Program-made: the position numbers and the translations under genes | Source: Echinarachnius parma | Taxonomy: Eukaryota > Echinodermata > Echinoidea > Clypeasteroida > Echinarachniidae | Direction: 5' to 3' | NCBI GenBank assembly: GCA_037951105.1 | Contig: JBAMJV010004002.1 | Span: 62,001 to 126,000 of the forward strand | Length of the DNA stretch: 64,000 bases | The notes under the pieces: generated by a model | The model's input: the letters and a program-made list of their open reading frames with translations, nothing else | Told to the model about the DNA's origin: nothing | The model's database searches: none | Shown: positions 12,701-51,100 of the stretch, piece after piece | Layout: every line of letters begins with the position of its first letter | Numbering within the stretch: the first letter of the stretch is position 1

Positions 12701-15700
12701 ACGTTTTACCAAAGTCGTTGCAAGATTCTTGTGAATGATAAATTATATTTTCATAGAAAAATATCAGTGTTTTATACGCAGTGCGGAGAACGAGAAATGA
12801 TGTAAGATTTGATCCCCGATCAATCACATGAAGTAGCCGAATTGGCATTTTAATTCTGTTCTTTTATTTCAAACATAGTGAAATTACCAGAAGTATATAA
12901 TATAACTGAACGGATTGCTAGACCGGGCTCTATATACCAGTAAAGCTTTAGGAAACCCTTACGCTGTGTTCGTTCTGAAAACCCCTTAGTTTTCAATGTA
13001 TATTCAAACTAATTTCCAAATGGTATGTGAAATAGAATTTTGTCTTGTCCCATACGTTTTATTCAAATGAAGACTTAAAGGGATCTAGTAACCTTGTTGA
13101 CATGTGCAAAAAGTCATGAATCGTTGATTCAATTGTTGTTATCTGATATGTTCACTGGGTATTGTGTACAAATTTCAAGTTAAATGGACGTTATATGGCC
13201 GAGTAATGAGCAATAATGCAAAGTGATGTTCACTAACTCATTGCACTGACTTTGTACACGGCTTCGACAATCCATTGGATAATTTAACATCTGAATACTT
13301 CAATCGTAAATATCTTTTTAACGAAAGGGAATTTTGAAAAACCGAAACCTGTCCCATGCTTTTTTCGTTAATACAAACACAACAAGATATGAGAGAACCG
13401 CTTGAATTCCAAATGGATTTTGAGGATTTGGACAATGTTACTAAGTCCCTTTAATCTCTATCTCAAACAACTCGATAATACTCAAAGTAAATTGAAGAGT
13501 AGACTTTGGGCTACTTAAAATTCATTTAATATTTATATAATCAAGTACAATGTACATCGTTCATTAAAGGTACAGTTGAGTTTTGGTATAGAGGGCGCTA
13601 CACAACAAAACAATTTGTGAGATAATGACAAAGTGAGTGTCAAATTTGAAAGGGCATACAATTTTAATGACAGGATAAACTTTATTTGATCCAAATCGGT
13701 TCAGAAGTGGCTGAAATATCCATTAACATAACCACTTGTTATTGTGGGGCCCAACAATTATTCGATAATTTTGAACCAGTCGTTAACAAAATTTAAAAAC
13801 TGCTACCTCTTTTCAAACATTTACAAAAGAGGTTTTTAAATAGTGGTTGGTTATTTCTCAATCTAATCACTATTTCAACAAAATATCACATGTATAATAT
13901 TTTATTTTAAATGGTTGAAACCAATGAGTTTTTAGAGGGCGCCCTTTTGAGTTTTAACGGCTCTTTTTTAATGATAATTTGTAATTTTGCATTCCTTTCG
14001 AGCATTATAACTATTAGTTTGCAATGTAATTGTGCAGATTGTGGTTACTAAAATTCAGTTTTACCAAAACTGTACTCTCTTTACCAAAACTGAACTATCC
14101 ATTTAAAACCCTACCCCCCCCCCCCCCCCGCCCCCTGCTAACACGTCTCTCAAACAGCGTTAGGAGTGTATTGCTAATGCATATAGTTGCCAGTATGGAA
14201 TATGTATACTGTCCAGGCATTGTCATGGTCATGTCCCTACCCAATAGTAAAAACATTTTACTGCTTTTAAAATGTTATTGCTTGTTTGATTACATTTCAG
14301 CTCATTTCACTATCATTTATTTTATCACCTTTATCCGTTATCTCTTTGTTTTCCGTTTAGGAGCGTATAGCCAAGGCCCACGGTTCACAGTGTGGTTTCT
14401 GTACACCAGGCATCGTCATGTCCATGTACGCTCTCCTGCGCAACAACCCCCAACCCACGATGGACGACATTCATACCGCTATGGAGGGCAATCTCTGTCG
14501 ATGTACAGGATATAGACCCATCCTACAAGCGTATAAAACATTCACTAAGGTTAATATTGCAAAAAAAAATCATTACATTTCATCATTTAGTTTTTTTTGT
14601 AATTTAGGTTACTCAATGTATTTTCAATTTGAATAAACTTTTATTTTATAACTTTTTGCAGCATGTGATTAATTTACACAATTATATTACAAACATGTAG
14701 TCATATACAATGTCATGTATACTTATTTATTAACAATTATACAAATTATAATATGATTAATACCAAGTGATATAGTGCAAAAAAAAATAATATGATATTG
14801 ATTTGTCTACAAACCCTATAATTATGAGGTAGTAAAGTGGATTTATTTTTAAAATATCTTAATGTGTTTCTTTACTCTAGTAAATGGGTAAAGTTGTCCT
14901 ACAAATGCTGATAATGATATATATGTGTAACAACAAAATTTAAATTGTCTTCCTTTTTTCTATATCCCTCGCGATCGGTTGATCCATATAGATACGTTGT
15001 AGGTTTGACTGTATTAAAGTGATCCTTTAACTTCATAATTTCTCAAAAGAGTAATGTCTGGGACTTCAATCATATACCAAATTCATTGTTAGATTGTTTA
15101 GAAGGATATGTGAGAATTTTAATGGAAAAGAATAACATTTACCTAGTGGAAACAAAGAAAATCAATGTCTGTATTGATCCGATCGTTCGCATGAAGCATA
15201 TTAATTCGGATATTATGGACTATTGGGTATCCAAATTCACTTACTCTTGACTACGGTCGGAAGCTTATAAGCTCTCTAATTCAATCTTAAATATACCGTA
15301 CCCATGATTATGAAGACATTTGAAATATCACAAGTTCACAACCCATATCATTCTTCTGTTATCATAATCCAAACAACAAGGTACAAGAGAAGTGGGAAAG
15401 CTCCAAGTGATTTTGGTTAAAATTGTACAAATTGAATGACTCACTTTACAGGAAGGATGTTGTGGAGGTAAGGGAGGATGTCAGAATGGCCCATGCTCTG
15501 CCCGAGATCTCAACATGGAGGTGAGTGTACACAATAGTAGAGATATACTTGCTTTGCCTTGTGGCCATGTCCGGCAAGTGCATGTAAACACAATATTCTT
15601 TTTAATTATTATGGCCCGAAACATGAAAATAATGACACTACTAATGTTTCGATTTATATAGCGCCTAATATGATTGATAATCATCTATTTAAGCGCTTTA

Positions 15701-16058
15701 CAATGGTATTATTACCCTGGTCATCGGATACACTCACAATCATTCCGCGCATGACGTGCACTCTCTGCTCCCTTGGGAGCAATGCATTATGGCGCACTTA
15801 ACTAAATCAGGTGTCTCCGAACATAAAATAACATCTGTCGATCGATGGATTGATTGATTAGTTGATGTTAATTGGCAAGGGATGGGACATTACTAAATGT
15901 TCCTCTCAGAGTGACTTGAAATGCTATTGAGTGACTTATTGTCTTCCTGAAATAGCATTTCAGGCATGCCAGTAATCATGCCTATAAGTAAATGTTTGTA
16001 CATTGTAATAATTGTAACATTTTAATGTTTGAAGACGAAATAAAAAATATATATTCAT

Positions 16059-16090
<32 letters not shown>

Positions 16091-16091
16091 A

Positions 16092-16166
<75 letters not shown>

Positions 16167-19100
16167 ATTTTTAATTTCTTTCCCCGTCTTTACTTTATTG
16201 TCCACAGGAGCCCAGTCCACTGTTTGACCCTCAACAGTTCGCCCCGTATGACCCATCTCAGGACATTATCTTTCCTCCCGAGCTTCTAGTAAGACCAGTT
16301 CCAAAACATTGTCATCTTTATCATGTTTATACTCTGATAACATTTCAATAATATAATTATGTGTTAGTTGGTTCTGCATAATGAGTTGTTAGGAATGGGA
16401 TTAGGGATAAGTGTAGAACTATATATAAGTACATCGATTATCCTAGATGTCATTACTGTAATTGTTCACATATTTATATTATGTTTATAGTGACCTAAGA
16501 GAAACCAAAAACGTGGCCACTGTAGACAAGTGACCTCCGTAGTCAGGTTTCATAACATGTGTTTTCTCTGCAGAGGATCACTTTTTATAGACAGGTTGGC
16601 TGTTATAGAGGTGACTGCAATGACGGGTTTAACTGTATAACTGTATTTTGGATGGCGTCTAAAGGAGCTATGAACTACATGTATAATACGTTTTCTTGTA
16701 ATTTATGTCCAAAGTCAATGGATAGTTCAGAATATCGAAGGGAATGGGTTAAAAGATCCCTTTAAAGGGAGTGTCCGCCTTTTACAAATCGTCCGAACGG
16801 TTTCCAGTAGACGGATAAGGATGAATGTAACACCCACATCAAATTTCAGATCGAACAACCCTGTAATTTGGATTCTACGAAAAGAAAACGAATGGCCTAC
16901 AAATCATCCCTTCATCGAACTAAATATCGGCCAATAAATGTGTTCATTATATGGAAACGTGCATTGTTATTGTGAGCATGTTCTTTTGTAAGTTTGTCTT
17001 TTGTTCATCTCCGGTTAGTTGACTAGTGATTGAGAAATGATATCACAAGGGGTTTTTTACTCTGGAGAGTTTATTTTTTTAAAGATGGGCCTTGGCAAAC
17101 CGAAGAAAATAATTGCTAAAATGTTAAAAAATATACAAAACATATGTAGGTCAAATAGTTAACAAATAGTCGATGAATACAATAATACACAATAGTTGAA
17201 GGCAACGTGCATTTGGATTTCAGGGAACCTTTAAGACTAAACATCCTCATATGCTATAAAATTGCCAGTGATTTTTTGTTGATACATGATACAAACTTAT
17301 TGTGCGTGTTTTTCTTTTCTTACCAGTTATCAGCAAATGACCCTCCCAAGTCGCTGTTCTTCAGAGGAGAGAGAGTTTCGTGGTATCAACCTGTCACTTT
17401 GGACGAACTCTTGGCTCTCAAGACTAAGTATTGGATTGTTGTTGATTTTTTTTGGTCACACTTGTGGTAACTTTGCGGGGATGACCTATACACGGCTAAC
17501 TTTGCTTTCGATCATTTTCAAACACACAGAGAAGGTCATGCCTGAATTTCCTTTTCATTTTGCATCAACGTAAAACACAAAGGTGACAAATTTGATGTAG
17601 TTATTATTGTTGTTATTATCATTTTGATTGTTGTTGCTATTGTTGTAATAACTAGTATTGGCTGGCTTGCTGTGGTTGGCAAAAGCAATATCATATAAAG
17701 GTTTATTTTGTTATTGTCATTAATAAGACAATTGTCTTTTATCTTGATTTTTGTTTACAAAAGAGACGAAATAAAGGGGAAAAAACACAGACAACAGTAA
17801 TCCTGTACTAAATAGTGACATTAAATCTATTCATTGCCATGGATAATGGTTCTAAGCAATATTGTCAGGCAAGCTCCAAATGTATGGCCTGGCAGTTGCT
17901 AAAGGAGTGGTCACATTGGACACGACTCCCCACGACTAGACCCACGAATGCAGTACGCATTGGTACAAATCTATGGCGTTTTAACATTTATTCCTATTTC
18001 TTGATATCAATAATTGAATTATTGATATCAGTTTATTTCTTGATATCAAGTATTACCAATACAGAAAAGTATTTCTTCATATCAAGAATGCATTTCTTGA
18101 TATCAAGAATGCATTTCTTGATATATATATATATATCAAGAAATAGGAATAAATGTTAAAAACGACTTGCCGTTGATTTGTACCAATGCGTACTGCATTC
18201 GTGGGTCTAGTCATGGGGAGTCGTGTCCAATGTGACCACTCTTTGAGAAGCAATCAACCACATCCACCCCATTGTCAAAAGAACAAACTAAAGGACAAGA
18301 TGTTTAGACTCATTAGTACTGTGTAACAAAAGGGCATGATGTCATCCATTCAGTACTCTATTGTGTCCGGTTCTCATCTCTGCTTGTCAGATCCCTGAAC
18401 TTACATACCCTTACAGACCTTAGATGGCCGGTGTCATACTTGAGGCTCGTATCTTATATGTTTTACATGTGATCTCTCTTTTCTATTATCTGATTATACA
18501 GGTGTGCAAATGAAGTTCAAGAACCAGTTATAGTTGGGTCCGATCTCTGTAAACCAGATTCCTGAGCTTATAGAAATGGTCTTAGATAGTCAGTGTCTTA
18601 CTTTTGGCTTTTATCTTGGGGTTTTCATGTGTTTAATGCATTATTTATTATTTGCTTGTACTACTTCCCGATATTTTTGTTTCTATATGAAAGGTGTGGA
18701 GATGAAGTTTAAGAACCAGTTGTATCCGGTCCTGGTCTCTGTGAACCAGATCCATGAACTAACCAAACTTACCGAGGATGACCAAGGGGTTACCGTTGGG
18801 GCCTCTGTTAGTTTGACTTGCATGGATGAGTATTTCAAGGACCTCATCAAAAGACAGCCAGGTACTAAGCAGGACTTATTTTTGTTCTTCTTGTTTACTT
18901 GTCAAAGAAAGTCCAACTTGTATGGGCTTCAGTCAGCAATAAAATATGACCAGGCACTAAGTTGGACTCATATTTCGTTACTCTTATTTACTTGTCAAAG
19001 TAAGTCCTAAATCAGTCCAAACTTTAGAAAGTCAAAAATAATTTTGATTAATTATTAATCAAAATTATATCGGGGGCTTCAGTCAGCTTAAAGTGGCCTT

Positions 19101-19432: not shown

Positions 19433-19464
<32 letters not shown>

Positions 19465-22400
19465 TTTCATTTTTGTTTGGGGGGGGGGGGGGGAGGCGTT
19501 CCTAATGGGGATTATTTTAACTACATTCTTAAGAAGAAGACACTCTTATCATATTTGGATTCTCTGTGAAAACTAAAGGTCAGTCGTTACCTTTTTATTT
19601 CGTTACCACTTAAAGAAGAATGGACCAGTGTTTCAAGGAATGTTATCATTGAAACACAACCAGGTCCTCAGCAAAATCACTTAAAAGTTTTTATTCTTCA
19701 TTGGTCATATCAATCTCATATAAATTTATTTTTCAAATCGAGGTCCAACAAATTGCAAGTAACATTTTGGGGACTTTTCAAATAGTGATAATTTCTTTGC
19801 TGTTGTGTTATAACAAAATGTAAAACAACATTTGTTGCTGCTGTAAAATAATGAGTTGTTAATTTATATTTGTGTGTGCGTTATTACAGAACATAAAACC
19901 AGAATTTTTGCTGCTATTGTCGAGATGTTGAGATGGTTTGCAGGAGTACAGATCAGGAATGTTGCGGTGAGTAATAACTTTCCAAACAAATGATCTCAAA
20001 CACAACTCTCCAACAACTTTGATGCAGATAAAAAAAGGAAGCTTCACATTGCTGTCTGATAAAAAAATATAGTTTCTTAGTAAATCAAGGTGTACCGTAC
20101 TATTTTGTTCAAAATTATCTTAGTAAATCAAGAGGTACCATACTATTTTGTTCAAAATTATTTGTTGTTATTGCTGCTGTTACTTTCTAATTTCTTAATT
20201 ATAATGTTTGTTACTTTTACGTTTATGCTGAGATTTTATGGATTAGTGTCTGTTACTTCTTAAAATGTTATATATTTGTAATTTGTTCAGACAGAATTGT
20301 AGTAAATAAAACTCGTATTACAGTTATCATAAAATATTAACAGTTATAATTCAATGATGCTTGAATGGTAGTAAATCATCTTAACCAAAACTGAACTATC
20401 CCTTTAAAATGACTTGCTATACTTATTATAATATTGTTTATTTGTCTGTGTCACTGTACAGGGAGTGGGAGGCAACATTGTGACTGGGAGTCCCATCTCT
20501 GATCTGAACCCTATATTCATGGCAACAAGAGCCAATCTCAAGCTAGTCTCCAAATCAGGAGGTAAAGTTATGGTCCAGTTTCTTTCTTAATTGATACTTA
20601 TGTTTGTAAATATAGTACATCATTTTAAAATTGTGTTTAAAATTGCACTTCAGAGTATATTCTCAACCAGTCTATCGATAAATGTATTTATTTTTGTAAA
20701 TGTATATGTATATATTTGTTTATTTAGTTAGCCTATATATTTATGTATTTATTTAGTATTATTTGTTTAAAATGTTTTTATTCATTCATTCATTAATTCG
20801 TTCATTCATTCATTCATTCATTCATTCATTCATTCATTCATTCATTCATTCATTCATTCATTCATTTATTTGTTTATTTGTTCATTGATTGATTGATTTA
20901 TCTATTCATCTGTACATTTATTTATGTTTTTCATTGTACTCAATAAGATATAATAGGGGTTCTTTCTATCATTTTCAGGGCCTCTTGATAATTCTGGGGC
21001 TCTCGTACATAGCTATGGCAAAAAGGTTGTCATTTACTGTATATTACAATAACAAATGTTTTTGGAGGGGGTGGGGGGCTCTCATATTATACCTAAGCAG
21101 GGCTCCGCACTAACTTATTTTGGTAGTGACCTAGCTAGTCATGCTAGTAAAATGATATTCTCTCCATTTTGGGTGGCCCGACACATACTACAGTAACTGG
21201 CCCCCAAATTACAGCATTTCATTCTCCTCATTAAGATTTCACTTTATTGACCCTGTTATTACTGATGCTCGTTTTGTATGAAAATATACTTGCCTGATAA
21301 GCTTCCAAAGTAATGTATGAATTGCAAATTAATTTTTGCTGGCCTGAATTTACATTTTATTGGCTCGGATCAGCAGGCCAGCTAGAGTAAGTGTTGGGCC
21401 CTGTTGGGCCCTGCCCATAAAATTAATTTGATTTAAAATGATCCATTAACTTAATTTTTTTTTCTCCAAAAGTGATAAGTGAGAATACAATCATATAAAG
21501 CAATATCACTGTACGATTCTTCTGAATAATCTGTGATAGTTTCTTAGAATAAGGACACTATTTACCTAGAGGAAAGGTGAGATAGTTGCCGGATGTTATC
21601 ACCTACTGCCGATTGATTCTGATTGACATTCGTAAAGTCGAAAAGCGTCCCTAGAATGCTTTTTGTGCTATCATAAATATCTCCATAATTATGAGAGACA
21701 ATTGAAAAATCTAAACCCATTTCATTTTTCTGTTACCATCAACAATCAAAATGTAGAAAGCAAATCTGAAAGCTCCAAGTGATTTGGGTTGAATTTGACA
21801 AGCAAAGATGGAAAAAATGTTACAGTTACCCAAAAATCAGACCTCTTTTGGAATTTTAATGATTCTTATGTTCTTAGGTGCTTGAAGTAGTTATTACCTC
21901 CGCCCAACGTGCAGCTATGCACACCACAGCAAGCCCCTTCGCTGGTCGGAACTCTGGCATAGTAATTGCCAGCTGGAGGCTTGTTCCGTGGATTGAATTT
22001 GCTGGAAATGTTTAGAATCGCCGTGAGAAATGTTATAAAAAAGGCAGTATGAAATGAGAGCATGCTTATACAAGATAAGCTTGGGCTATTTATTACGGAA
22101 ATATGTCGCTTTGGTGTCCCATTTCCCCCCCAAAAATGTGATTGTTTAAAAAATTAATTTTCTTGTAGGCTGTCTGTTCATTTGCGATCTCTTTGGGCTT
22201 TATATGGCTTGATCCGATCGTTGGCGGAGGTATGCACTCCGTGAGTGCACTCTGTCTCGTTTAAACTAGTGTTTCGTTATTCCGTTTATTTCACTAAACG
22301 TTTTAAAACGTTTAAAAAGTAGGGGGGGAAATCGGGGGGGGGGGGAAATGTGAATTATTATTATTATTATTTGTTTGCATCCCTATATTAATGGTCGGGA

Positions 22401-24089: not shown

Positions 24090-24130
<41 letters not shown>

Positions 24131-27100
24131 CCCTAACCCGAATTTGGTGGCTATAGGTCAGATTAGTGGCTATAGGTCAGATTTAGTGGCTATCATGGCT
24201 ATAGGCCAGATTTAGTGGCTATAAGTTAGATTTATTGGCTACATAAGTGTATACAGTAATAACAGTATAGTAGTGGTGGGGCCTAATACACGATATTGCC
24301 GTATATTTTTTTGTTCTGTTTTGTTTATTTTAATGGATCGGTTTAATGCTATCCTACAATATGTGTATGTTTACAGAGGCATGACAAAGACACAAAACTA
24401 CAGGGAAAATTCTTCTAAAAATAAGAAATATATAATAGGGTTCCCCAATCCTTCATTCATGTGCGCCCCCATCCCTTATCAGTCCGACCAAGCTGCGCCA
24501 TATAAGTAATTCACTTTTCGCCTACAATCATTTTATTTGTTGTCTTCATTTTATTTGAGTTTAGTTAACTCAAACCTCATGTTTTGCCCATGCACTTAAC
24601 ATTGTTTGCACAATGAGTGTTTTCTTTAGTATTTTTACTTTTTACTGGAATTATATTTACTCTATGCTCAAGTTTTTCCCCCTCCTCTCTCTCCCCCTCT
24701 TTCTCTCTCTATGAATTCTTATTATAAGCTCTGTTTTCTCCCTCTTATTAAAAGCACGTTTTTTCCCCTCTTAAAAGGCATGTTTTCACTCTCTCTCTCT
24801 CTTTAAAGAATGAGTTCTTCCACGCCTACAAGCAGTCTCCTCGCCGGGAGGATGATATCGCTATTGTCAACGCCGGCATGCGGGTGATACTGGAAGAGAA
24901 GGACAGTATTATCCAGGAGATATCACTTGCCTATGGTGGCATGGCGCCAACGACTATACTGGCTCTCAAAACCATGGACAAGTTGATTGGAAAGTAAGTA
25001 TACAATTGATATCAGTTGCATCCTCTCTATTGTAGTCACCCAATTACCTCTAGCCTACCAAAAGTCGTAAACTCTATCTCTATTTAATTTGTGTGTGTTA
25101 TACCTCTTTGTTTCATTCGGATACGTTTTGCCTTTTTTTTGCTTTGTTTTATGTTTTCTCTCTATGTTTTTTTCTTCTAACAGACAATGGGATGAGAGCA
25201 TGTTAAAGACGGCCCTTGGTATAGACTTAACCCCTGGGGTGATGGTGGCCTTTCATAAGTTTTTCACTCTTTTTTTTCTCCATAATTTGTTTGTGTTACC
25301 TCTCGAGTTTTTAGTATGGTTCTTTCTCGTTCTTTTGTATCACAGAAAATGGGATGAGAGCATGTTAGAGACGGCCCTCTGCACCCTTGGTGAGGACTTA
25401 CCCCTGTCGGCCGGTGCTCCTGGGGGAATGGAGGCCTATCGCAAGTCACTCACACTCAGCTTCTTCTTCAAGTTTTATCTCGCCGTTGCCAATCACCTTT
25501 CATCTTCACAGGTAATACAGTTGTAAAAGTTCAAGATCAAGAGTTACCTTGTTTGATTGTTGTTTTGTGTGACTGCATTTTTGCTTTATCATCGCAACAT
25601 CGCAACACCAACTTCCATTGCTAAAAAAACACGCGCAATTTCTCGGTCGTTCGCATGGCAGATCCAAATTCGAATACTATCAGCGATCGCCGTATCCTAA
25701 TTCCTACAAGGTGAACTCTCGCTGTGATTTGCGGCATCCGCGCCCACCCGTGAGAAACAAGCAAAATCGGCGACTATTGTTTGCGTGATATGTATACAGT
25801 TTTAGTACACAACGCAAACACCTAACCACAAATTAATTCCAATAATGTCAACTTTGGGACTTAATTTCTACAGAAAAGAGGACAAATTTAAACCATTTGG
25901 TTAAGCTTCAAACAAATTTGTTCATATTCATGTTTGTAAAGGTAAAGTTTGCTGCTAATACTCTGTTTATTTCAAGTGTAAATTTGTGCATTTTTTTTTT
26001 TTTTACTTTTGTGTGCCTTCGATTTCAGCTGTGCTCAGGTATGCTAAACGGTGTATGAGTGGTTACTCATTTGACTCGTGTAAAAATGTTATAATTATTA
26101 GTACATGCATGTAAAGGAGAAGATCAGATTTTAGAGTTTGGGACTAATTGTTTTCTTGTGAATTTTCTTTCGACAGAAATACAGCAATGGTCTTTCTATT
26201 CCACCCAGCCATAAGTCAGCAATAACCGTCCATGAGAATGCACCAATCAATGCCACTCAGTTTTACCAGGTAAAGTAATTATTATTGATAATAACCCAAG
26301 ATCACTTTAAAAGGACTTTAAAGTGACATTCCCCGTGTTCACACACAAAATGTTCAGCCCTTCAGCCCCGTGTTCACACACAAAAAATTTCAGCCCTTAA
26401 TCATCTCTATAGAATCATCTCTAGCGATACGACGTATCGTTAGAGATGATTAAATCAAACCTGGTCGTTGTTCAGACACACACAGAGCATATCGGACACC
26501 AGCTGGTTCACAGCTGGCGGCGAACCCCCCCAAACATCGTATGACTGCGCAGTTTGCTACTGCGCAGTGTGTTCTCCTTTTTTTTCTGCCTGCCGTCACC
26601 TGTGCGCGCGAACGTTCGCTTTAAGCCACGCCCAGTTAGTTAGGGTCCCGATTTAATCATCACTAAAGCGAGCTTCGGTTGTTCACACACAAATTCGCCC
26701 TGATTCAGTATAGTCAGCTCTCGTACGAAACGGTGATAAAACCAGCGTTTCGCTAGTCATCTCTAACGATACGTCGTTTCGTTAGTAAGCGTTCAGACAC
26801 ACGAATTTTTAATGGGAAGCTGATTCTATAGTCAGCTGCTGATTCTTTAGTCATGATTAAGGGCTGAAAATGTTGTGTGTGAACACGGGGCAGCATGACT
26901 AAAGAATCAGCAGCTGACTATAGAATCAGCTTCCCATTAAAAATTCGTGTGTCTGAACGCTTACTAACGAAACGACGTATCGCTAGAGATGACTAGCGAT
27001 ACGCTGGTTTTATCCCCGTTTCGTACGAGAGCTGACTATAGAATCACGCCGAATTTGTGTGTGAACAAGGATTTCTCGCTTAATCATGTTTAGCGATACG

Positions 27101-33100: not shown

Positions 33101-36100
33101 TGTCGAGCCACACGTACAATATCATACAGAGGTGGTTAATTCCTGTGATTCTTGCAAACTTGTTACCCCCTTTTCAGGCAGCTAATTATTTTCGAAACCA
33201 GAATGTTTTGATAAATAGGCCTTATACGTTCTAGCTCCCATGTTTTAAAAAAGCCTATGAATGACTGCTACTTTCAAAATACTTAGTTTACACCTTTTCA
33301 GTTCGATGTTGAGAATGAGAAAGATCAGAATCTTGTTGTCATTAGTTTATATTTGAAACATCGTGATTCATGATGATTATTTGTCCCCCCCACCCCAACA
33401 CACACTCCTCTAGAGGACCCTGTACGTAATGTATACACTGACAATTGTTTGTACATCTTTGACATTTTATAAAAACTTGTAATTGAGTTCAAAGCTCTAC
33501 GAGATTTGTTTTTAATAATGGCAACAAAAAAAAAAAGTTACCACATCGGGGACTCGAACCCACTTCTAACAATTAATTTATTACGTGATACACGTGCGAC
33601 CGGCCTTACCCACTCCGCCACAGAATCCCTAATGATCACGTGACAGATTTAATCAAACTATATCATGTCACGTACTATCGATATTCACTCCGAACTTGTA
33701 CCGTGTTGCCACTGCGAGTTATGCCTTCATCGTCGGCTATGCAAACCGCTAGCGCTAGCGATGTGTCTCTGCGCGCGGCGGGCATTCAATTTTTTAAAGA
33801 GAGTCGCGCACATTTCTTGCGAGTTTAGTTACGAATTCCACGAAAAATAGGGAATATCCACTAACATCGTACCGATCAAGTGAATGGTTTGAATATTTTC
33901 TTCTAATTATGGTGTTCAATGCATGCATGTGGTTAGTCTTTATTACGATTTGCTCTATAATTCGTAAGCATATGAAAGTTTTCGTCACCATTTTAAAGGG
34001 GTTCTGGTGATATTTGTCTGGTGTTGACTAACACTATCGATCCTGATATCGATATCAGGGTTTGTAGCGATTTGGTATGATCGTTTTCGGAAAGTTCGTG
34101 ACCTCCTCTTAATCTGGAAGCTGGTGTTTAGCTCAGATTAGAGGCAGTTTTTCCGAGTTTTTTCATCCTCAACACTAACACTAACCCCAACACCATACTT
34201 GAAATCACCCAATGTCCATATGTTTTCCTAGTGAAACTTTCAGGGTGTTTGCCCGTAGGAAATTTGTATACTCAGGATTCTACAGTTAACACATTTTTCT
34301 TCAAACTGAACCAAGGAATGCAAGTAAAGAAACGTTGAAAGGCGCTGAAGATTTGTTATTTGATCTATGTGACCATTTTGTTCTATTCAGGATGATATAG
34401 CCAAGCAGTTCTTCATACTAACCAATGTACAGTATTCGAGATAGGTAATATTAAAGAAGCACTAAGGTCAGATCATGTCCTTCATTTCTTGGGGTAGATA
34501 AACGTTGTAAGACACGAACATGTCGACATAATGAAACTTCAAATCATTATTGGTGTATTTGATACTATGATGTTTCTGGATTCAGGATGCTATAGCAAAA
34601 CACTTGTTCTTGAAAGTGACCAAAGGGTTTGAAACGGGTGGCGTTGAGGTCAGATCATGTCTTCAAAGGGGATATAAATGCTGAAAGGCATACACATTTT
34701 ATGTCAAAGATTTAAAAGTGAAACTTGCTCGGTTATATTATGCCTCTACAAAAAGGTGGCCGGAGGCATAATGTTTTTGTTGTTGTCCGTACGATGTATG
34801 TATCCAATGCCATACTGGATACATACATGTACCAGGTTTGATAAAATTCCATTAATCTGTTATTGAGATAACGTGATCATGAGAACATTTGGGAGCCAGT
34901 TAACTGAATATATTATAGGGTCATGAGGTTAAAGGTCACAGGGCTCATGTATAGATGCACACATTAGTCATGAGCATATTATCTAACAAAATCGATTTAA
35001 GGATTCTCCCCAATCTTGGTACATGTATAGATGAACATAATTAGATTTTGGGGTCATGAGGTCACAGGGCTCATATAAATCATGCAATGGCAGAGGCATC
35101 CATTTGGACTGTGCAGTCGAAGATCATCTAGTTTGGCTTTGTTTCTTGATTAAGGAAACTATAGACAAGCAGTCTGTCTTGAAAGTGTCTTAAAAGTGTC
35201 TTGAAAATGCTTTGAACACTGGTGACTAGGTATGCGAGCGGGCTTATTATCGGCGAGGGTGCTCATTTGCATGAATGCAACCTTTTGTTTGCCATGAGTT
35301 GTGACGCCCTAACGGTTACATGTGTACAACCTATACATGATTCCTCAGATAAGGCTATTACTTCGTATAATCTCTATTAAACTTCAATCTAAATTTCATT
35401 TAAATCTCTTTTAATATTCATTAATTCAATATCATTGGTTACATTGACTCTGTTTCTTGATTCAGGATTCTATCGCCAAGCAGTCATTCTTGAAAGTGAC
35501 CAAAGGGCTTGAAACGGGAGACGTTGAGGAGGCATTAGAGAGGTCAGACCATGTCTTGGAGGGGGAGATGAAGGTGGGAGGGCAGGAGCACTTCTACCTG
35601 GAGACCCAGTGTTCCTTTGCCATCCCCAAGGGAGAGGATGGAGAGATGGAGTTATTCTCTTCCACCCAGAGCCCTTCTGAAGTCCAGGTATGTAAATTAT
35701 GACTTTATTTAAAATCTGGTACATGTATGTATCTTTATCTATTTATCTATTCTCCACTCGTTGGATGGATTGCCCTTGTCAGCTACAAGCTGTTTTTTCA
35801 AAGGGGCCCATCAGGCCAAGATTTAAAAAAACACATTTATATAATTATTTTATATTTTAGATGACACGTTAATTTCCCCCTATGTTTTTTTTTGTTTTGT
35901 GTAAAATATTATTTTGTTGTTGTTGTAGCTAGATATAAAATTGTTTTGAAATTGTCGTATTTAAAAAATATAATTCCAGGGTCAGCCTTTTATGAGGATA
36001 CAATTTTTCTGGCCGCTACCCACTCAACAAATATACTCTTTTTATACTACTTATTACGTAAACTCTTTTAGTTTATGTTTGTCATTACTTGTGTTTCAAT

Positions 36101-39100
36101 TAGATTTATGCATTTTACGAATGCACTGGAAATTTAAAATGAAACAGTATATATCTGTGAAATACTTTATACATAATATTTTGTTGTTAGAACTTCCTAC
36201 CAGCACTCTGTAGTGCACGGCCAGTCTCTTTGTTCTTGTGAATGAGCTACCACAACATAGGCTATAGTACCCCAGGTCGAAAAAAACAGTTGAAAATTAG
36301 TTGCCAACTGGTACCAGTTGGCCAACTGGTTTCAATATGGAAATTGGTACACTGGAATCAACTGGAATCAATTGGAATCAACTGGAACAACCAGTAAGAA
36401 TCCAGTAAGAATCCAGTAAGGCTGACCAGTAAGAAGACCAGTTAAAGTAGTTGGTTTCAACTGGTATTTTTAATTGGTTTCAACTGGTATTTCTATTGGT
36501 TTTAACTGGTCTGCTGCATCTATCCATTTATCTTTACTGGGAACCGGGAATGTTAACTGCTATCGCTTGATGCCAGTTCAAACCAGTTGAATTTCCAACT
36601 GGTTTCAACTGGTTTCAACTGTTTTTTTCGACCTGGGACAGCACATCAGCCTAATGCTTACAAATATATAACGTTATATAATGTATAACGAACAGTCAGT
36701 GCATAGGCACCTTCTACATACTTATTTTGTTTATATAATATGATGTTTAAATTCAGATATTAAACTTTGTACATGCATATATTTTGAGGAGCCAATTCAA
36801 TTACGTGATTAGATGTTGGGGTCACGAGGTCATATGTCAAAGGTCATATAGGGCTCATTATACATGTAAACATAGCTTGGTATCACGATATCTCAAGAAC
36901 CAGTTGACTTTCATGGAACTTAGTACATTAATGTATCTTAATGAGAGAATGGAGTGATCCGATTAGGGGGTGATCACGAGGTCAAAGGTCACAGGGCTCA
37001 TTGTATGCAAACATCGTGATATCTCTAGATTTGGTTGACAGATTGCCATATAATTTGTTACATGTATAGATCTTACGGAGCCAATGAACTGATTTCATTT
37101 AAAGGATAGCTAGATCAAATGTCAAAGTTGACTCTGCTCATATTATTGGGCAATGGCGTAGACATCTATTTCGACGGCGCGCAATCCAAGATCCATCTTG
37201 TTTGAATTTCTTCTGCCAAGGTCGTATTTCACATGCGCAGAAGTATCCTACGCTATATAGGCCAGGCCGGTGTTCCATAGCCTACTTGCGCTAGTAGTAT
37301 AAATGGGTAGACATCTTCAGTGGCGTAGACAGGTTCGTACACCTGGGGGGGATGATTTGCCGTTCACCGGACCAAGACCAATTTTTCTCTCAGTGGGTCC
37401 TCTCAGTGGGGGAGGGGGGGGGGGGGGGGGGGGGGGGTAGATGTTAAGATGGTCGTGGGAGTGAAGTGACTGAGCGGGGGGAGGGTTTTGGAGGGTCCCC
37501 CCTCCCACGGTAAGGAGATTTTGCATTTTTGGACTTGAAATAGTGCAATCTGGTGCTTACCTAGATAGGAAATTCGGACTTAACATTGACTGTATCTGGG
37601 AAAGCGTGTTATTTTAAATATATTTTCACGATAAAACAAATAATTGACACACGAATAAATATGCACCTCAACACAGGGAGCGAAGTGACTGAGCGGGGGG
37701 GAGGGTGTGGGAGGGGGTGTCCCCCTCCCACGGTAGGGAGATTTTGCATTTTTGGACTTGTAATAGTGCAATCTGGTGCTTATTTTAAATATATTTTCCA
37801 CGATAAAACAAATAATTGACACACGAATAAATATGCACCTCAACACAGGGAGCGAAGTGACTGAGCGAGGGGAGGGTGTGGGAGGGGGTGTCCCCCTCCC
37901 ACGGTAGGGAGATTTTGCATTTTTGGACTTGTAATAGTGCAATCTGGTGCTTACCTAGATAGGAAATTCGGACTTAACATTGACTGTATCTGGGAAAGCG
38001 TGTCATGATTTGATCGTCCAGAAATGTTAAATATATTTTCATGAAGAAAACAAATAATTGACACATATGCACCCCAACACAAATATTGTATTTATATTTA
38101 GCATCATACACAGTTCCAACATCACCATAATTATGCCACATTATGTATGATCCAACAACTAAGCCTATTACCAAGAATGAGTCCCGAGGGGCGAAGCTAC
38201 CGAGGGCTGGGGCAGGGCCAAATAGGGAGGGTTTGGGAGGGGGTATCCCCCTCCCACGGAGAAGATTTTGCATTTATATACTTGAAATGGTGACATTTGG
38301 TGCACGTCACACAAGTAGCCAGAGCAATGCCAGCCTACACTGGAACTACGTGGCCCGGTATACAGAAAAGAAATACTCACCCCTGACCATACGCAAGTTA
38401 CACAACAAACTGAGATAATCTGTTCGCGCGCGAAGCGCGCAGCAAAAATTGAAAGTTGATGTATAAATTACCTTTTTAACGTTAGAATTAACAAGTCTTA
38501 GCTCATACAACTTATGTTTTCTTTCCCACTCGTATACAGCTACACACAAACAAAATATATCCTTCCCTAAAACCTGGGGGGGATGATTGTACATGTCACC
38601 CCCCCACCTTGTGAGGTGGGGGGGATGCATCCCCCTCATCCCCCCCCGTTGTCTACGCCCCTGGACATCTTATCCCAGGCCAGTGCAAGACGCTAGTATG
38701 AATGGGGTGATATTCTTAAATCCTGTAGGAAATCGACTCGGTGTTCCCATTGTGCTGTTAAATTGTGTCGTTTATCGAACCAAGCAAGTGGGAGGAAGCT
38801 TCTGGGGCAGGGAGAGAAGACCTGCCTTCAAACTGACAAGTTTTTAATTATGCACCTTCTTTTTCAGTTGTTAACATTGCATATTTTTACATGCATTTTG
38901 TTTGCAGCAAATGACCTCCATTGTTCTCGGCGTGCCGTTGAATCGTGTCGTTTGTAGAACCAAGCGTTTGGGCGGAGGCTTCGGGGGAAAACAGAGCAGA
39001 GCCTCCATGATGGCCTCTGCGTGTGCTGTGGCTTCAAACAAGTAAGTTAAAGGACCTAAAGAATACAACGTACTTTGACACTTATTCCATAGTTGATGAC

Positions 39101-42100
39101 TTGAAACATATGTCTGCCGAAAAAAAATCCATGAAAATAAACACAGTAGTGATTTTAGACTAGTTTTCTGATGCCAAATCTCACTTAGCCGCCAGATTGC
39201 GCCCCACCCACATTTAGCGCGGCAGCGTGATCGACATGTGATTGACAATTCATTGGCTTACGTCATGACGCGTCATCTACAGAATTTAGTTCATTAGTCC
39301 GTTCTTTAGATGACGTCACATTTTGGCGATTTAAAAGGGGCGTTCCCAGGACAATTAGATATTTACTAATTACCCCAAAATTGATTGATTTCATGAGAAA
39401 TGACTGCCAAATTCTTTTTCTTCGGGAAAAATTACATATAGAGAGCCGAAGTTCCTTCAACCTTGTACGAGATTCCCTTATTTGACAGGAATCCGTTTCT
39501 TGAGTGCCACAGAGTTGGCATCACAAACGACGGCAGACTTGAAGGGATAATGAGTTTTGGTAAAGAGAGTACAGTTTTGGTCAAACTTAATTTAGTAACC
39601 AAAACCTGCACAATTACATTACAAACTCACAGATATAACTCCGCCATGCTCGAAATGAATACACACATACAAATGACTAAATAAAAAGCCTGTTATCATT
39701 CACAAAGTACCGTTAAAACCCAAAATGGCGCTTTCTGAAAACTCATTGGCCCGAAGCCCCGAATTCTCATCAATGGCTCAACTTGAGTTAAACCATTTCG
39801 CACCCGCAGCCTTTTGTTTGGTTGCGATGATCTCCGGAGTTATTCAAATCGTTTCCTTTCATTATCCAGTCAATCCCTTGAGTTCTGCTTATAGGCATCA
39901 GGATAATGGGCCCTTTGAAATTCAGTCATATTATAGTTGGTCATCAGCCAAATTGCGTTCTGGATCATCCTGGACATTGAATTGCTGGTGACCAGTTAAA
40001 CTGTGACTGAAGTGCCCATTGTCCTGATGCCTATAATCAGAACTCAAGGGATTGACTGGATAATGAAAGGAAGCCATTATAATATCTCCGGGGACCATAT
40101 CAACGAGTCAATAGGTCTGCTGGTGCAAAGTGTTACCAGTAGTCTTTGTCTTTTTAGGCCGGGCTCAAGTTGAGCCACTGATGAGAATTCGAGCCATTGC
40201 ACAGCTAGCCACCTGACGTCGGGCCGATGTCGAAAGTTGTTGGCCGGATGTCAGCATAATCGCGGTTGGCTCGAAGTTAAAATGTCCGCCAGCCCAACAT
40301 CGTCACCACGTCATTTTGTGATACGTCAATTTCTGACAATGGCCCAACATCAACTCATGACATTGGACCAACATAACATTATGATGTGGGCGCGAGGTTA
40401 AAATGCCCTTAGCCCAACATTGTCCCAACATCATTTTGTGATGTCGGGCAAATGTCAATTTCCGACAATGGCCCAACACCAAATCCTGACATAGGACAGA
40501 TATCAAATTCTGATGTGGGCTCGACGTTAAAATGTCCGCCAGCCCAACATCGTCACCACGTCATTTTGTGATACGTCAATTTCTGACAATGGCCCAACAT
40601 CAACTCATGACATTGGACCAACAAAACATTATGATGTGGGCGCGAGGTTAAAATGTCCGCTAGCCCAATATTGTCCCAACATCATTTTGTGATGTCGGGC
40701 AAATGTCAATTTCCGACAATGGCCCAACACCAAATCCTGACATAGGACAGATATCAAATTTTGATGTGGGCTCGACGTTAAAATGTCCGCCAGCCCCAAC
40801 ATTGTCACCACGTCATTTTGTGATATTGGCATAACGTCAATTTCCGACAATGGCCCAACATCAACTCATGACATTGGACCAACATAACATTATGATATGG
40901 GCGCGAGGTTAAAATGTCCCACTAGCCCAACATTGTCACAACATCATTCTGTGATGTTGGCCCAACGTCAATTTCCGCCAATGGCCCAATATCAAATCCT
41001 GACGTTGGGCCAACATCAAATTCTGACGTTGGCCCGACATTAGCCCAACGTTATTTTTTATTGTTGGCCCAACATCAAATCTTGACGTTGGCCCAACATC
41101 AAATCTTGACGTTCGCCCGACGTTTGAATGTTCGCTAACCCAACATTGGCCCAACGTAATTTTTTGATGCTGGACCAACATCATAATTTGACAATGGCCC
41201 AATGTCATTAATATGACATCTCCAATAAGAGGTCGACCTAATATAGCGCCGATGTTGGGACTGGTATCAATTTAAGAGGTCGCTACCCAGCTAGCCACCT
41301 GACGTTGTGCCAACATTGGGCCAATGTAAAAAGTCGTTGGGCCTACATTAAAAATCCGACGTCGCCGCGACGTAAAAATGTCCGCCAGCCCAACATCAGC
41401 GCGGCGTTTTTTTTTTTTAATGCTGGCCAAACGTCATTTTGCGATTTCGACCCAACATCAATTATTCAGTCAGTGGTCAGTCATGGTTGTGAAATTAATG
41501 TCGGGACAATGTTAGTAATGAGACAAGAATAGGACATCTCAATTTTGACGTCAAACCGAAATCCTACGACGTCAGAATGGGCAGCAGTGAATCAAGTCGG
41601 CTAATAGTCATTAAGTTGATGTTGAGCCGATGTCAATGATCCGACATGAATATGACATCTCAATGATGCCGATGTCAGAACTGACAGCAATGAAACAAGT
41701 CGGCAAATGATCATAAAAGTGATGTTGCGCCGATGCCAATAGTCGGACATGAATATGCCATCTCCAATATGACGTCAGGCTAATATCGCACCGATGTCGG
41801 AAAAGATAGCAATTAAGGAGGTCGGTAAATGGTAGTAAAATTGATATCAGTCCGATGTTATTAATTAGACATGAATGTGATAAATATGTCAGGCTGATGT
41901 AAGAACTTGCAGCAATGAAACAACTCGGCAAATGGTCATTTAATTGATGTTGTGCCGAAGTCAATGATTAGACATGAATATGACATCTCAATGATGACGC
42001 CATAGCGATATCTTGCCGATGTCAGAACTGGCAGCAATGAAACAAGCCGGCAAATGGTCGCCAGTACCGACATCGGTACAACATTGACCCAACGTCATAT

Positions 42101-45100: not shown

Positions 45101-48100
45101 CGGCCCAACGTTGGCACGACGTCAGGTGGCTAGCTGGGTGGTTTCAACCATTTTAAATAAAATATTGTGCATGTGATGTTTTGTTGAAATAGTGATTAGT
45201 TAGAGAGATAATAAACAATTATTTAAAAACCTCATTAATTTGTAAATTTTTGAAAAGAGGAAGCATTTGTTAAATTTTGTTAACGACTGGTTCAAAATTA
45301 TCGAATATTGTGGAGCCCCACCCACAATTATTACAAATGGTTATGTTTATGGATATTTCAGCTATTTACGAACCGATTTTGATCAAATAAACTTTATGCT
45401 TTCATTAGAATTGTTTGCTCTTTTAATTTTACACTGAGGTTTTCATTATCTCACCAAAAAAGTATCTTGTGTATCACCCTCTATACCAAAACTCAACTAT
45501 CCCTTTAATATGTGTTAAAATGGCATAAAACAGTAGTCTCCGCTTATAAATATGGCAATGCAGGAATGAATTCTTTATTTTAGGGGGTACTTTTCCAATC
45601 TGATGGATATACAGACATTTTTCGGGAATGAAAAATAGTCTGATAATACACCTGTAGGTTGTTCAAAATATGTATTTTGTTATTGTTTGTTTGCTGCAGA
45701 CTGAGTTGACCATCAGTGAGGCACATGTTAGACAGCGATAAAGACTTTTATTATATGACTTGGCAAAATGCGAGTCATTGATTGGCTCAACACAGTCACG
45801 TGATTTCCATAATATTTTGTTATAGTTATATTACACGGCAGAGCCCACTATTCACCGCATGGCGCGCGCTGCAAGAGATATTGTATTATGACATCACAAT
45901 AAAGCCCCGTAATCAAAGATTTTTCCTCGATGTCACCCTGGCTACATCAGGATGTGAAACGGTTGGTGGTCTAACTGAAAAACACGGGGTGAACTTTTGG
46001 ACAGTGGCTTAATCAAATACGCTTCGTTCGGTCACCCGCACAAACATCACCTGGATGAGTGTAAATATAGTATAAAGTCAACTAAATTAAAAGGAAACGA
46101 GCATTATTATCATTGTCATTATATGCACAGTCAGATATCAGTTGTTGTGTATAGCTAGAGTTGGAGAGTTGGACTGCACATGCGCATAACAGACGAACAA
46201 ACCGGACCGATCACATAACCTCCTTCCAACTCCGTTGGCGGAGGTAATAAGAATGATATCGATCAAAGTTGAGTTTCCGAACTTTTTTTGAGGGGTGTAC
46301 ATGTATGTAGTTTGTTTAAATGTTGTTCATTTTTTTCACCAGAATCAATAGACCAGTGAGGTGCATGCTTGACAGAGATGAGGATATGTGTTCTACTGGT
46401 GGCAGGAATCCGTTCCTTGGACGCTACAGAGTCGGCTACAGCAACGATGGCAGACTTTCAGCACTTGACATCAAGCTTTATTGCAATGCTGGCTATAGTC
46501 ATGACTTTTCTGGGGCTGTACGTAATAACAGTAACATCCATTTAGTTTAATTTCCTTTCTTTATAGGCAAGTAGGCCTACATAATAACAGATATAGTATT
46601 AATGTTATTTAGCTTTAAAACAAGAGGGACTTCTACGGTTATGAAATGCTTAGGGTTATGAGTGTCACTTAGCCCATTATTTGAAAATTGTCTTAAATGT
46701 TAAGATTTATAAAATGAAATGCCTGATTAGTGTTTAAATGACACACTAGGAATAACTATTTCCAGTTGGTAGGATTATAACTTAACCCTAAAAAGGCCGG
46801 GCTATTTGAGGTCTTCAGCAGGCCGGGGGGGGGGGGGGGCATTATGGCCCCCCCCCCTAAGATCTCGGCCGCGGAGTGGCTGATCGCCGTGAAAAATTGC
46901 ACGCATGATAAGTGAAGTGTATAGAATACAATGGTAATTTTAATTTTTTGAAAAATTCATTAATTTGCATATTTATGGTAATTTATGCAAATAAGGTCAT
47001 ACAATTCATATTTTTACCCATGAATCATATATTCTTCATAATTAAACTCTGGTTTTCACTACATATATTCTTTAGAGCATTTGGAATAATAATACAACAA
47101 AATTTGGAAGAGCCAGGTTCTTCCTTATGTTTTCTATTCTTTTTATTATTTTTTATGTATTTCTTTGTTTTTTTAACTTATGTATTTTTATTTTTTTATT
47201 TTTTTATTTCTAACTATAATTCAACTATTTTGAACCCCAAAACAAACATATAAAATGTAAACAAGACCAAATAACCAATGATATACCTCATTTTACGAAA
47301 ACTGATATTTCCATATGTTTTGTACACAAATCACGAAATTGAGCAATTTTCGGGCTGACATGCATAGACAAATTAAAGGTTTTGTAATATCATAACTATG
47401 TGTGTAGCAAAGTTAGATTAACAGATTCAACGTTTACAACTCATTCAAAATTCAGCAGCGCGACTCGTAACACAAACAAAGAAACATGACTCAATTTCTT
47501 CAGTCTTAAGGAATTTGCATTGCTTACCATTCAGTCCCGTATTCATGTTAAGGTAATTTTATTTGCTTATCAGTGTTTTCATCAATTTGGTCCATTATAT
47601 CTTGTTGAATTGTTAACACAGTATAAGCCAGAAAAAACCCTACGCTCGAGCAAAAAGTCTTTATTTTGTGTCCCTCACAATGACAAGATCATACGGGGAA
47701 AGATCATTTTCATATGCGGCCCCTGTAATGGAATTACTTGCCTGAACACATTAGAAACATAGATACATATAAAAGGTTTAGAACGAGCTTGAAAACACAT
47801 TTATTTAACACTTCGTACATGTCGTAAAATTTAATAATTATGAACCCAGTGCACAATTGTATTCCTTTTGTATTCTTTTCTGAAAGCGCATAGAGACATG
47901 CAATTTTGCTTATGTGTTATGCGCTATATAAAAATGTTTCATTATTATTATTAGATCTGTATACGTATCGCAATAATTGTGTTGACAATATATTCAATCA
48001 GCCTGAATCATGCTTTTTTTTTCCATTCATCAATTTATTTAAATAAACTCACTTATTTACCGCTTCTTTCAGGTTACGAAGTGTGCAGTATTGCGCATTG

Positions 48101-51100
48101 ACAATACAATGTGTATCGATCCTTTCGTATGTAAAACGAGTATCATATTAAAAACTGCCTTCATGGATTTCATTTAGAGTTTATATATTCAGAATCATCT
48201 GTTTTAATCTTATGAACTATTTTAGCTCTGTTACCTTTTTACTCTTCTCTAAATTCAGGTATTGGAAAGGCTGTTTCGCACATTGACAATGTGTATCACT
48301 TTCCTGTGGCTACAGTAAGAAGTCACTTGTTCAAGACCAATATCCTATCCAAAACCGTTTTGTTAGAGATTTCATTTATGGCTTTTATTCTTTATATACT
48401 ATTTTAATTTACTTCACTATTTCAGCTCTCTTAATACTTTTTGTTCTTCTTCAGGTGATGGAAAAGGGCTGTATCGCACATTTTCAATGTGTATTACTTC
48501 CCTGTAGCATGACTAAGATGTCACTTGTGCAAGACCAATATCCTAGCCCAAACTGATTTCTGTGCATTTTAGTCATGGGTTTTATTCAGTATTTACGGTT
48601 TTAATTTACTTTACTATTTCAGCTTTTCAATTGTTTTTTCTTTCTTTTTGCTATTTAATTTTATGCTTCTTTCAGGTGTTGGAGAGGCTGTATTACACAT
48701 TGACAATGTGTATCGCTTTCCTGTGGTCAGAGTGAGAGGTCACTTGTGCAAGACCAATCTTCCTTCCAACACGGCCTTCCGTGGTTTCGGTGTTCCCCAA
48801 TCCATGATCATTTGCGAAACTTTCATGACGGACATCGCCGCAAGGCTCGACATCTCCCAACTGAAGGTATAATCATCATTCTCCGTTTGGTAGATCTATC
48901 AACCTTTTTCGCTGGTTAATTTGCCCGGGGGGGGGGGGGGGGGGGGGGTCTGTCCTCATTGAAAGGGGGGTATCATGCGTGACCAAGAAAACGAGTAATT
49001 AGGGTGGTTTTTCACGATCAGGCGAGATACTCGAGTATCTCGTTTAGGGTCTCAAAATCACCCAAAATCAGGAAATAGGGTATCTATTTTAGGCTGATGA
49101 ATTACTCGTTTAGGGTCTCAACAAGATAAATTACTCGTTTAGGGTCTCAAAAACTCAGCTTACTTGCTTAGGGTATCAAAAATAGTTATAACTTGCTTAG
49201 GGGTTTACAAAAAAATGATTACTTGCTTAGGGTATCAAAACTACTTGCTTAGGGGTTTACACAAAATTGATTACTTGCTTAGGGTATCAAATTACCGATA
49301 ATCATACTTGCTTAGGGTGTATTTTTTGCACCACGCAAATACTCGTTTAGGGTGCTTTTGGCAAGTCCTTGGTCACGCATGATACCCCCCTTTCTATGAG
49401 GACAGACCCCCCCCCCCCCCCCCGGGCTGGTTTGCGAAGTAAAAAAACATTGTTTTCCAATTCTAGGGCCCAAAACCTGAATCAGGTCGCCCAATATCGA
49501 ACAAATTTAGACAGTGGACTTCATATACATGTAAAACACGTTTGACTGTACAGTGCGAGTCAAACAAACCGGAACCGGACTTTGAAAAAGCTTCTAAATC
49601 CACAATGCTAAACATATGTATGTTGATATTGGCATCATGTTTAAGCTTGGGAAATTGCGTTTAAAATGATTTATCATACTCACTGATTACGTCATGCTTC
49701 ACCGAACGCGACCTAATTATCCAGCCATGCAAACATTACCCGTTCCAAGTTTGAAGTTGTATTGTTCCATCATGAATGGATGTGTCTGTTCACCTTTTTT
49801 TCTCAAAAGAACATTTGTGTACGCCTCTGACACTTTCGGTTAATTGTGGGGAATATCAAAATTTAGATTTTTAGTGTTTTGAATTCTCTATGATTTCAGC
49901 TTTAAAATGATGTATAACTTATGATACATATAAGTTTGTTGAAGGCGAGAAAAATGCAATTTAATAACGTGGACCAGAGCCTCGTTATTTGTTAAACAAC
50001 AGAGAAAATCGCTTCTAAAGTTTTGCATCATTCAGAAAAGCACTCTCACACATCGAGCGAAAGCTGAACAGTTAGCTTTCACTGTTTCGCTTTTCGTGAT
50101 CGATCAACAAGTAATGAAATCAGCTCAGTGCACGCGCAAAATTCATCAGCCAATCAACGAAGCTTTCGCCTGCATTACGTAATTGGACAAAGCCACGTCG
50201 GTTTCCTTTCAACATAGCTGGTGGGTCGGCACAGTGTTATCCCTTCTAACAATGAACTCATGATGTTCAGAAACGGCCCCATTCATTTATCCTGCCCCCG
50301 GCCGCCCCAGTACTTATTGCAACAGTACACTTTACACGATGAATCGTCACATCGGAGAAGCGTATTTTGATAATCAATCCAAGCGGCTACTGGCTACGGA
50401 GCAATGCTATCTTTTATTGAAATTCAAACTTGGAATACACTTTTCGGTAGTTATGATAATAAAGAGGTCTACTAACGCTCCCATTGCACCTTTTCTTTCG
50501 TAATTTTCCAGTCGATTCACTTTCATTATAATTCTAAAAGAAATTATTTTGCGGCAATGAAACTGGTTTTGAGCCAATCAGATTGCTTGTTTTAAATAGT
50601 GTAAATCCACAACATCATTGTGTTGCATCATTTTCCCGTAGGCTACACAACTTCACACGGCAGTATGTTCGAAGGACTAGAAGAAATCATATTTAATCAT
50701 TAATTTTTTAGTAAAAACGATTATTTAGAGCAAATGAATCGTGTTTTTTGTAAAATATTCCGCTTGTATTGCGTGGGGGTGATTTTACAGTACATTCTCG
50801 ACGGACAATATCATTATTCGCCCGTGGCGAATCACTTACTTTTTTTTTCCAAAAAAGGGTTAGATAATTTAAAAATTCATATTCAAAAGTAGAAGTAAAC
50901 AATACTATAATGCTATTTTTTCAAAGTATCACACTAAAGAAAACCGACAACCACAGAAGAAACGACTCGTATATTGTTAGCAAATACATCGAAAATCATA
51001 TCCCCCGTATGAAAACATAGATTAATCCGGGAATCCCCAGAAGGTACACTAGGACGGTCGATTGATCGTCTTGATCTGAATGTAACTAGCTACTTACGTA

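Follow-up and report, generated by a model that had tools for sequence, protein, structure and literature searches.

Recurrent part-exon tandem copies upstream of complete exons in a sea urchin xanthine dehydrogenase gene, its paralogs and myosin genes

A 64,000-nucleotide stretch of sea urchin (Echinarachnius parma) DNA, hereafter the window, carries a xanthine dehydrogenase (XDH) gene on its + strand, and seven of the 22 exons placed in this gene are preceded by decayed tandem copies of their own first part. These part-exon copies are acceptor-sided and recurrent, occur on both haplotypes of the window gene (X1) and are found in two gene families. An earlier note on this DNA described the pattern in the XDH-like gene; with the XDH paralogs and myosin genes described below, it is no peculiarity of that gene. 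Recurrent short tandem duplication, with relics persisting where splicing ignores them, is the best reading of the data and in our judgment a probable one.

The window was taken from a 1.2-Gb assembly of 14,790 contigs (G000:C4000:62001-126000). Among the best 120 hits shown, its protein matched the XDH of Lytechinus variegatus at 70%, that of Diadema antillarum at 68% and those of the starfish and hemichordates listed at 52–55%; the Lytechinus and Diadema proteins are 80% to each other. Exons were placed by tblastn with bovine and Diadema XDH, which confirmed the exon numbers and positions given earlier. Exons E2–E8 and E10–E24 were located on the + strand, and the 3′ part of the gene extends beyond the window.

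Each of the 22 exons was compared by Smith–Waterman (SW) alignment with the 3 kb before and the 3 kb after it, using 60 dinucleotide shuffles each. Upstream copies were detected at p < 0.005 for the same seven exons that the earlier note had named, including E22, for which it had reported fragments (E5, p = 1e-7; E10, 1e-10; E15, 3e-13; E20, ~0; E21, 2e-11; E22, 2e-3; E23, ~0). No exon of the 22 had a downstream copy within 3 kb at this threshold, the lowest p values being 0.02 for E10 and E24 and 0.04 for E16; the intact exon is the 3′-most copy, as had been proposed for nearly all cases. The one contrary case put forward, an E10 fragment at 19621, was seen as a possible match but is weak (score 36, p = 0.02). 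The upstream p value of E22 alone fails correction for 44 tests; a second, far copy of this exon begins at 39483 (blastn E value, 1e-6). In an earlier scan of 18 exons against 278 far windows of the same 64 kb, six of the seven exons scored above all far windows, and the E22 score was reached by two of them, which fits its own copy at 39.5 kb. Downstream scores of 34 (E15 and E24) also exceeded the far-window maximum of 33 in that scan; with shuffles, E24 gave the p value of 0.02 mentioned above, and the E15 match lies partly beyond the 3 kb of the shuffle test. None of the minus-strand scores within 3 kb of the 18 exons was above all far windows, and the copies share the orientation of the source exon and lie close to it. 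Simulated part copies of 17 exons, carrying 18–25% substitution plus indels, were detected at a rate of 0.96–1.00, equally on both sides. A chance origin of the copies was rejected by both the far-window and the shuffle tests.

One dead copy was found for E5, E15 and E21, two for E10 (the second hard to place), three for E20 and E23, and one plus the far fragment for E22; a possible fourth E20 copy (score 44) lies on the other haplotype. The spacing of 160–220 bp claimed earlier applies to most copies (162–221 bp) but not to those of E20 (195, then 569 and 311 bp) or E22 (643 bp and 6.9 kb). Copies accompanied six of eight X1 exons of at least 165 nt and one of 14 shorter ones (Fisher p = 0.002, with a cut-off set after seeing the data).

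Placement at the acceptor was possible for 11 copies. Each consists of the acceptor AG and the first 49–132 nt of the exon, the duplicated piece spanning the 3′ end of the intron and the 5′ part of the exon. None is a whole exon and none reaches the donor, which corrects the earlier description of these elements as copies of an exon plus flanking intron; the complete exon with its donor was left downstream of the part copy. The matches end at exon nt 67 (E5), 67 (E10), 130 (E15), 132/119/49 (E20), 100 (E21), 91 (E22) and 50/97/108 (E23), in exons of 134–222 nt. Identity to the live exon was 0.70–0.83 over the matched part (17–30% divergence) and lower for several copies over a fixed first ~110 nt (0.58–0.80). 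Complete-exon tandem duplication yielding alternative exons was found in none of the 11 placed copies. Whole-gene duplication and a processed pseudogene, both already judged unsuitable, do not fit acceptor-bearing copies that lie interspersed, one by one, among the live exons.

An intron part of the duplicated unit was present for some exons only. Intron homology beyond the pyrimidine tract was clear for E23 in pairs among the three 3′-most units, and there the intron and exon parts together fill the step. Upstream intron homology of E20 was clear only when the pyrimidine tract was included. Both break regions of E15 (exon nt 99 and 121 bp before the copy acceptor) contain AGTC followed by ACTC with different spacers, which is a weak sign of microhomology.

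The contig C11286 represents the other haplotype, with 90–99% identity to the window in collinear pieces of its first 30 kb. Every one of the 22 exons was found on it at 88% or more, as were 13 of the 14 copy queries, among them the weak 19621 fragment; the fourteenth, from E15, matched at 86%. The presence of the copies on a separately assembled haplotype therefore shows that they are no assembly artefact. On the same contig, a sister XDH gene, X2, lies in opposite orientation to the X1 allele.

The search of the genome with the Diadema protein returned 36 matches. Besides X1, these comprise X2 (C1345; C11286 84.7–131.5 kb; C5594), X3 (C9021) and X4 (C377), together with smaller XDH pieces on C7730 (nearly identical to X2 in two exons), C3 and C801. 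Thirty exon loci were analyzed, which are the best-matching, long exons, six from X1 and others alleles or sisters, and do not represent 30 independent cases. An upstream copy in gene orientation (p < 1e-3) was present at 26 of the 30 (all except L020, L024, L025 and L029), and a downstream copy at two (L025 and L027, one exon in two sister genes). The copies form arrays at distances of 192/378/567 bp (L038), 193/390/568 bp (L039), 216/413/586 bp (L036), 219/420/601 bp (L047) and 182/368/476 bp (L031), with steps mostly of 173–238 bp. In X3, upstream matches were found for seven of 11 exons of at least 150 nt and one of 10 shorter ones (p = 0.024, with the cut-off set after seeing the data, 21 exons found and exon ends set automatically). 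The E5-like exon of C3, C801 and C377 had no significant copy (upstream p values of 0.9, 0.03 and 0.5, respectively).

The arrays also bear on the age of the copies. The E23 array is common to X1, X2 and X3, the nearest copy being largely lost in X3, and is therefore older than the split of those genes. For the exon encoding aa1005-1087, the two nearer copies of X4 match the X4 exon at 0.78 and 0.81 and the X3 copy at 0.60 and 0.63; this comparison suggests that X3 and X4 gained these copies separately, an outcome that gene conversion could mimic. Older copies lie further upstream in some arrays of the paralogs, as the upstream decay described in the earlier note would have it: identity to the live exon drops with distance for the X3 exon aa1124-1190 (0.88, 0.73, 0.66) and for X3 E20 (0.90, 0.76, 0.70). 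The description does not extend to the window copies of E23, where identity is 0.72 for the nearest copy, then 0.78 and 0.60. A "downstream copy" of X3 E17 proved to be a tRNA-like repeat taken in through a mis-set exon end and was left out. In an X3 intron (L049 ~8870-9170, C9021:28870-29170), a tRNA-like repeat with GGTTCGAATCCC was noted, partly repeated ~290 bp further on.

Myosin, unrelated to XDH, was the second gene family covered. A myosin-head search of the genome gave 82 matches, of which 20 regions with long matches were chosen by hand and searched for copies within 350 bp at p < 1e-3. Nine of the 20 long exons had an upstream copy (L059, L060, L062, L064, L066, L067, L068, L069 and L074) and four a downstream copy. 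Two downstream cases were left after corrections: the L068 match looks like an ATG microsatellite and was left out, and those of L071 and L073 are apparently one event on two contigs. At L061, a copy of the last ~75 nt of the exon follows the exon, with its donor GT changed to AT; at L073, the exon is followed by a copy that starts within it, runs through the donor and contains stops. The intact exon is the 5′-most copy at both loci, as predicted, because one break lies within the exon and the other in the intron after it, the converse of the geometry seen in XDH.

Taking X1 and myosin together, exons with acceptor-side copies outnumbered those with donor-side copies 16:2 (p = 0.001), a count that mixes two criteria (p < 0.005 within 3 kb for X1 and p < 1e-3 within 350 bp for myosin). 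The ratio was 15:2 without E22, and 16:5 (p = 0.03, by hand) when the short downstream matches of X3 E22, L025 and L027 were added to the donor side alone. Steps of 150–240 bp made up 41 of 49 exon-associated steps vs 8 of 19 non-exonic ones (p = 0.002); the 49 steps were taken from earlier results and include paralogs of shared ancestry, and this p value is optimistic since the steps are not independent. Non-exonic local repeats formed 34 clusters above the shuffled 99.9% level in window 4–63 kb, most of them intronic, and a stricter test excluding a satellite block gave 19 clusters at 704 positions. With transposons, satellites and microsatellites unmasked, a repeat within 350 bp was found for 15/74 window segments upstream and 21/74 downstream, and for 17/110 and 9/110 segments of C11286, respectively. 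One intronic tandem repeat (37457-38303) has steps of 171–219 bp, two units 98% alike and no exon sequence; it is a young duplication that falls into the size class of the exon copies.

Repeated short tandem duplication, one of two mechanisms offered in the earlier note, is supported by the window copies, the paralog arrays and the myosin exons. Tandem duplications of about 160–225 bp would arise repeatedly in this genome, and some would have the left break in the end of the upstream intron and the right break ~50–130 nt into the exon. The product would be a second acceptor and a part exon lacking a donor, ahead of a complete exon with its donor. Since it has no donor, the part copy is presumably not defined as an exon, and it would be spliced out with the intron and decay neutrally. 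Duplications of a whole exon would instead add a second exon to the mRNA and be purged, and new rounds at one exon would build arrays with ~190-bp steps. Relics at long exons and a 3′-most survivor would both result from the tolerance of donor-less copies and the purging of whole-exon copies. The survivor would be 3′-most because, with breaks in intron and exon, the downstream exon alone is complete from the moment of duplication. This geometry makes the other mechanism of the earlier note, in which a fresh 3′ copy takes the place of the used exon, unnecessary, and the placed upstream copies lack the 3′ part of the exon and the donor.

Several results weigh against duplication followed by neutral survivorship. 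Homology of the intron flank was not significant for E5, E15, E21 and E22, and a match at E10 was not counted, as it pairs exon-derived sequence of one copy with that of another. For 11 of the 20 long myosin exons, the 350 bp upstream contained no copy. Both the acceptor-side excess and the step size are beyond what neutral survivorship alone explains. Finally, an acceptor AG is retained in all 11 placed copies, on both haplotypes, a little more often than expected from neutral decay; such decay would give this outcome with a probability of 0.002–0.04, depending on the divergence assumed.

The side bias and the step size are what a mutational process anchored at the acceptor would account for. 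Such a process would set the distances at which duplications start and end, the bias being mutational and not due to survivorship; the candidates are the pyrimidine/purine boundary, a ~190-bp chromatin repeat and breaks linked to transcription or splicing. Recurrence at the same exon in separate paralogs and right ends confined to exon nt 49 to 132 agree with it, as do the 16:2 excess and the step enrichment. However, local repeats are common in non-exonic DNA too, a conserved live exon should keep exon relics recognizable for longer, and donor-side events exist (L061 and L073). We regard this process as possible but rather doubtful, and the same tentative standing is given to its widest form, in which a genome-wide, 3′-splice-site-anchored process would repeatedly duplicate a ~190-bp, nucleosome-repeat-sized stretch of intron end and exon start.

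The retained AGs also raise the question of function, in that part copies could be preserved as decoy acceptors, with the effect of slowing splicing or favoring intron retention. With a first position weight matrix (PWM), trained partly on the same exons, the scores of several copies equaled those of live acceptors. This striking result was not confirmed by an independent PWM built from 15 unaffected exons, in which the tracts of the copies were no better than expected from neutral decay once AG was kept, and strong selection on the acceptors of the copies was rejected. The second E10 copy (18313), moreover, appears to have lost its AG; it was kept out of the acceptor count as its start could not be placed, and counting it as a loss weakens the test. 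The E23 copies diverge between paralogs at about the rate of the surrounding introns. The best donor-like sites in the copies score 2.0–7.8 vs 0.3–12.1 for live donors. Functional decoys are thus not supported at the level of sequence, and we consider them improbable. As for collapsed or mis-joined haplotypes or noisy reads, an assembly of 14,790 contigs with separate haplotype contigs might invite such errors, but the copies recur on C11286, differ from the live exon by more than the haplotypes differ from each other, and have counterparts of like architecture in other genes; this explanation is hardly credible.

Tandem exon duplication can give rise to alternative exons when an exon and its flanking intron are copied head to tail, as in Drosophila Gr39a. 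The sea urchin copies share the head-to-tail arrangement but contain only part of an exon and lack its donor. Decoy exons in retained introns are non-productive splice sites inside introns; the present copies would likewise place non-productive splice sites in introns, but their own donor is absent, though donor-like sites exist. The closest published case found is a duplication in the potato RdRp gene (Ma, Lan and Niu 2016, PMC4974935). There, a tandem genomic duplication across an intron–exon boundary brought a cryptic donor in its exonic part into use and created a new spliced intron in one event, and an 83-bp tandem duplication also lies inside the first intron of the gene. As in our case, the copied piece ran from the end of an intron into the beginning of the following exon, and it held a putative branch site, tract and acceptor but not the donor of that exon; in contrast, the sea urchin copies are decayed, serial and spread over many exons and two gene families in ~190-bp steps. 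Internal gene duplication (Gao and Lynch 2009) and Rogers' AGGT model, as cited in the same paper (PMC4974935), concern whole introns with flanks or exonic AGGT pieces; they resemble our case in the short internal duplication of exon and intron but, as described there, differ from it, since each sea urchin copy contains a single boundary and looks to be without function. A literature search, in small part of which sea urchins were named, found no such arrays described in sea urchins among the titles and abstract openings listed.

If the pattern is genome-wide, the exons of one animal lineage would hold datable relics of the duplications proposed to create introns and splice sites, and the preference of the relics for the acceptor side would become measurable. 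If an acceptor-anchored process is at work, the ladders of part exons would continually supply new acceptors, introns and exons and would date past events exon by exon like "growth rings." In such genomes, gene predictors may call part exons real, and counts of "duplicated exons" must separate part copies from whole ones.

The live exons concerned, their copies and further features of X1 are listed in Table 1. The tandem repeat at the E10 donor was absent from the list in the earlier note.

Table 1. Live exons, part-exon copies and related features of the XDH gene X1, in window coordinates.
Feature	Position	Strand	Evidence
Live E5	14361..14549	+	tblastn to XDH
Truncated E5 copy, AG kept, end approximate	14164..14270	+	SW p 1e-7; also second haplotype
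Exon 8, 3′ end and donor missing (45-bp deletion vs other haplotype)	17327..17427	+	
Live E10	18694..18861	+	tblastn to XDH
Truncated E10 copy, in-frame stop, end approximate	18502..18630	+	tblastn, SW
Older, more decayed E10 copy, start uncertain, AG apparently lost	18313..18440	+	also second haplotype
E10 donor-region tandem repeat, 92-bp step, second donor GC	18858..19007	+	blastn self hit (18858-18914 vs 18950-19007)
Possible downstream E10 3′-end fragment, donor-like site, weak	19621..19670	+	score 36, p 0.02
Live E15	25346..25511	+	tblastn to XDH
Truncated E15 copy, internal deletions, end approximate	25184..25272	+	SW p 3e-13
Live E20	35466..35687	+	tblastn to XDH
Truncated E20 copy, lowest identity of three	34391..34527	+	
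Truncated E20 copy	34586..34690	+	
Short truncated E20 copy	35155..35206	+	
Live E21	38908..39041	+	tblastn to XDH
Truncated E21 copy	38729..38836	+	SW p 2e-11
Live E22	46343..46517	+	tblastn to XDH
Truncated E22 copy	45700..45797	+	SW p 2e-3
Far E22 fragment, transposon and satellite DNA between	39483..39560	+	blastn E 1e-6
Live E23, 1-bp deletion near start in window allele	48676..48866	+	tblastn to XDH
Truncated E23 copy, most diverged, end approximate	48073..48180	+	
Truncated E23 copy	48259..48373	+	
Truncated E23 copy	48455..48570	+	

The window allele differs from C11286 at two sites that are intact on that contig. A 45-bp deletion removes the end of E8 including its donor (17427-17428), a region that we take to be the flavin adenine dinucleotide (FAD) loop of XDH, and 1 bp is deleted near the start of E23. 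"E9" is missing from the window because this allele lacks the end of E8; on C11286 it was found joined to exon 8, and a gene-wide loss of exon 9 was rejected. The window may thus carry a segregating XDH null allele, or contig errors at E8 and E23.

Scans of the window with Rfam and for tRNA genes were empty. A family of ~550-bp repeats (6030-7551, 13564-14106, 28391-30345, 39539-39749 and 45139-45508), present in the gene in several copies, is probably a non-autonomous transposon. Between E21 and E22 (40200-45150) lie satellite-like repeats with periods of 24–490 bp and GTTGGCCCAAC motifs, and part of this block matches many other contigs, with 110 matches listed for window 44000-46000.

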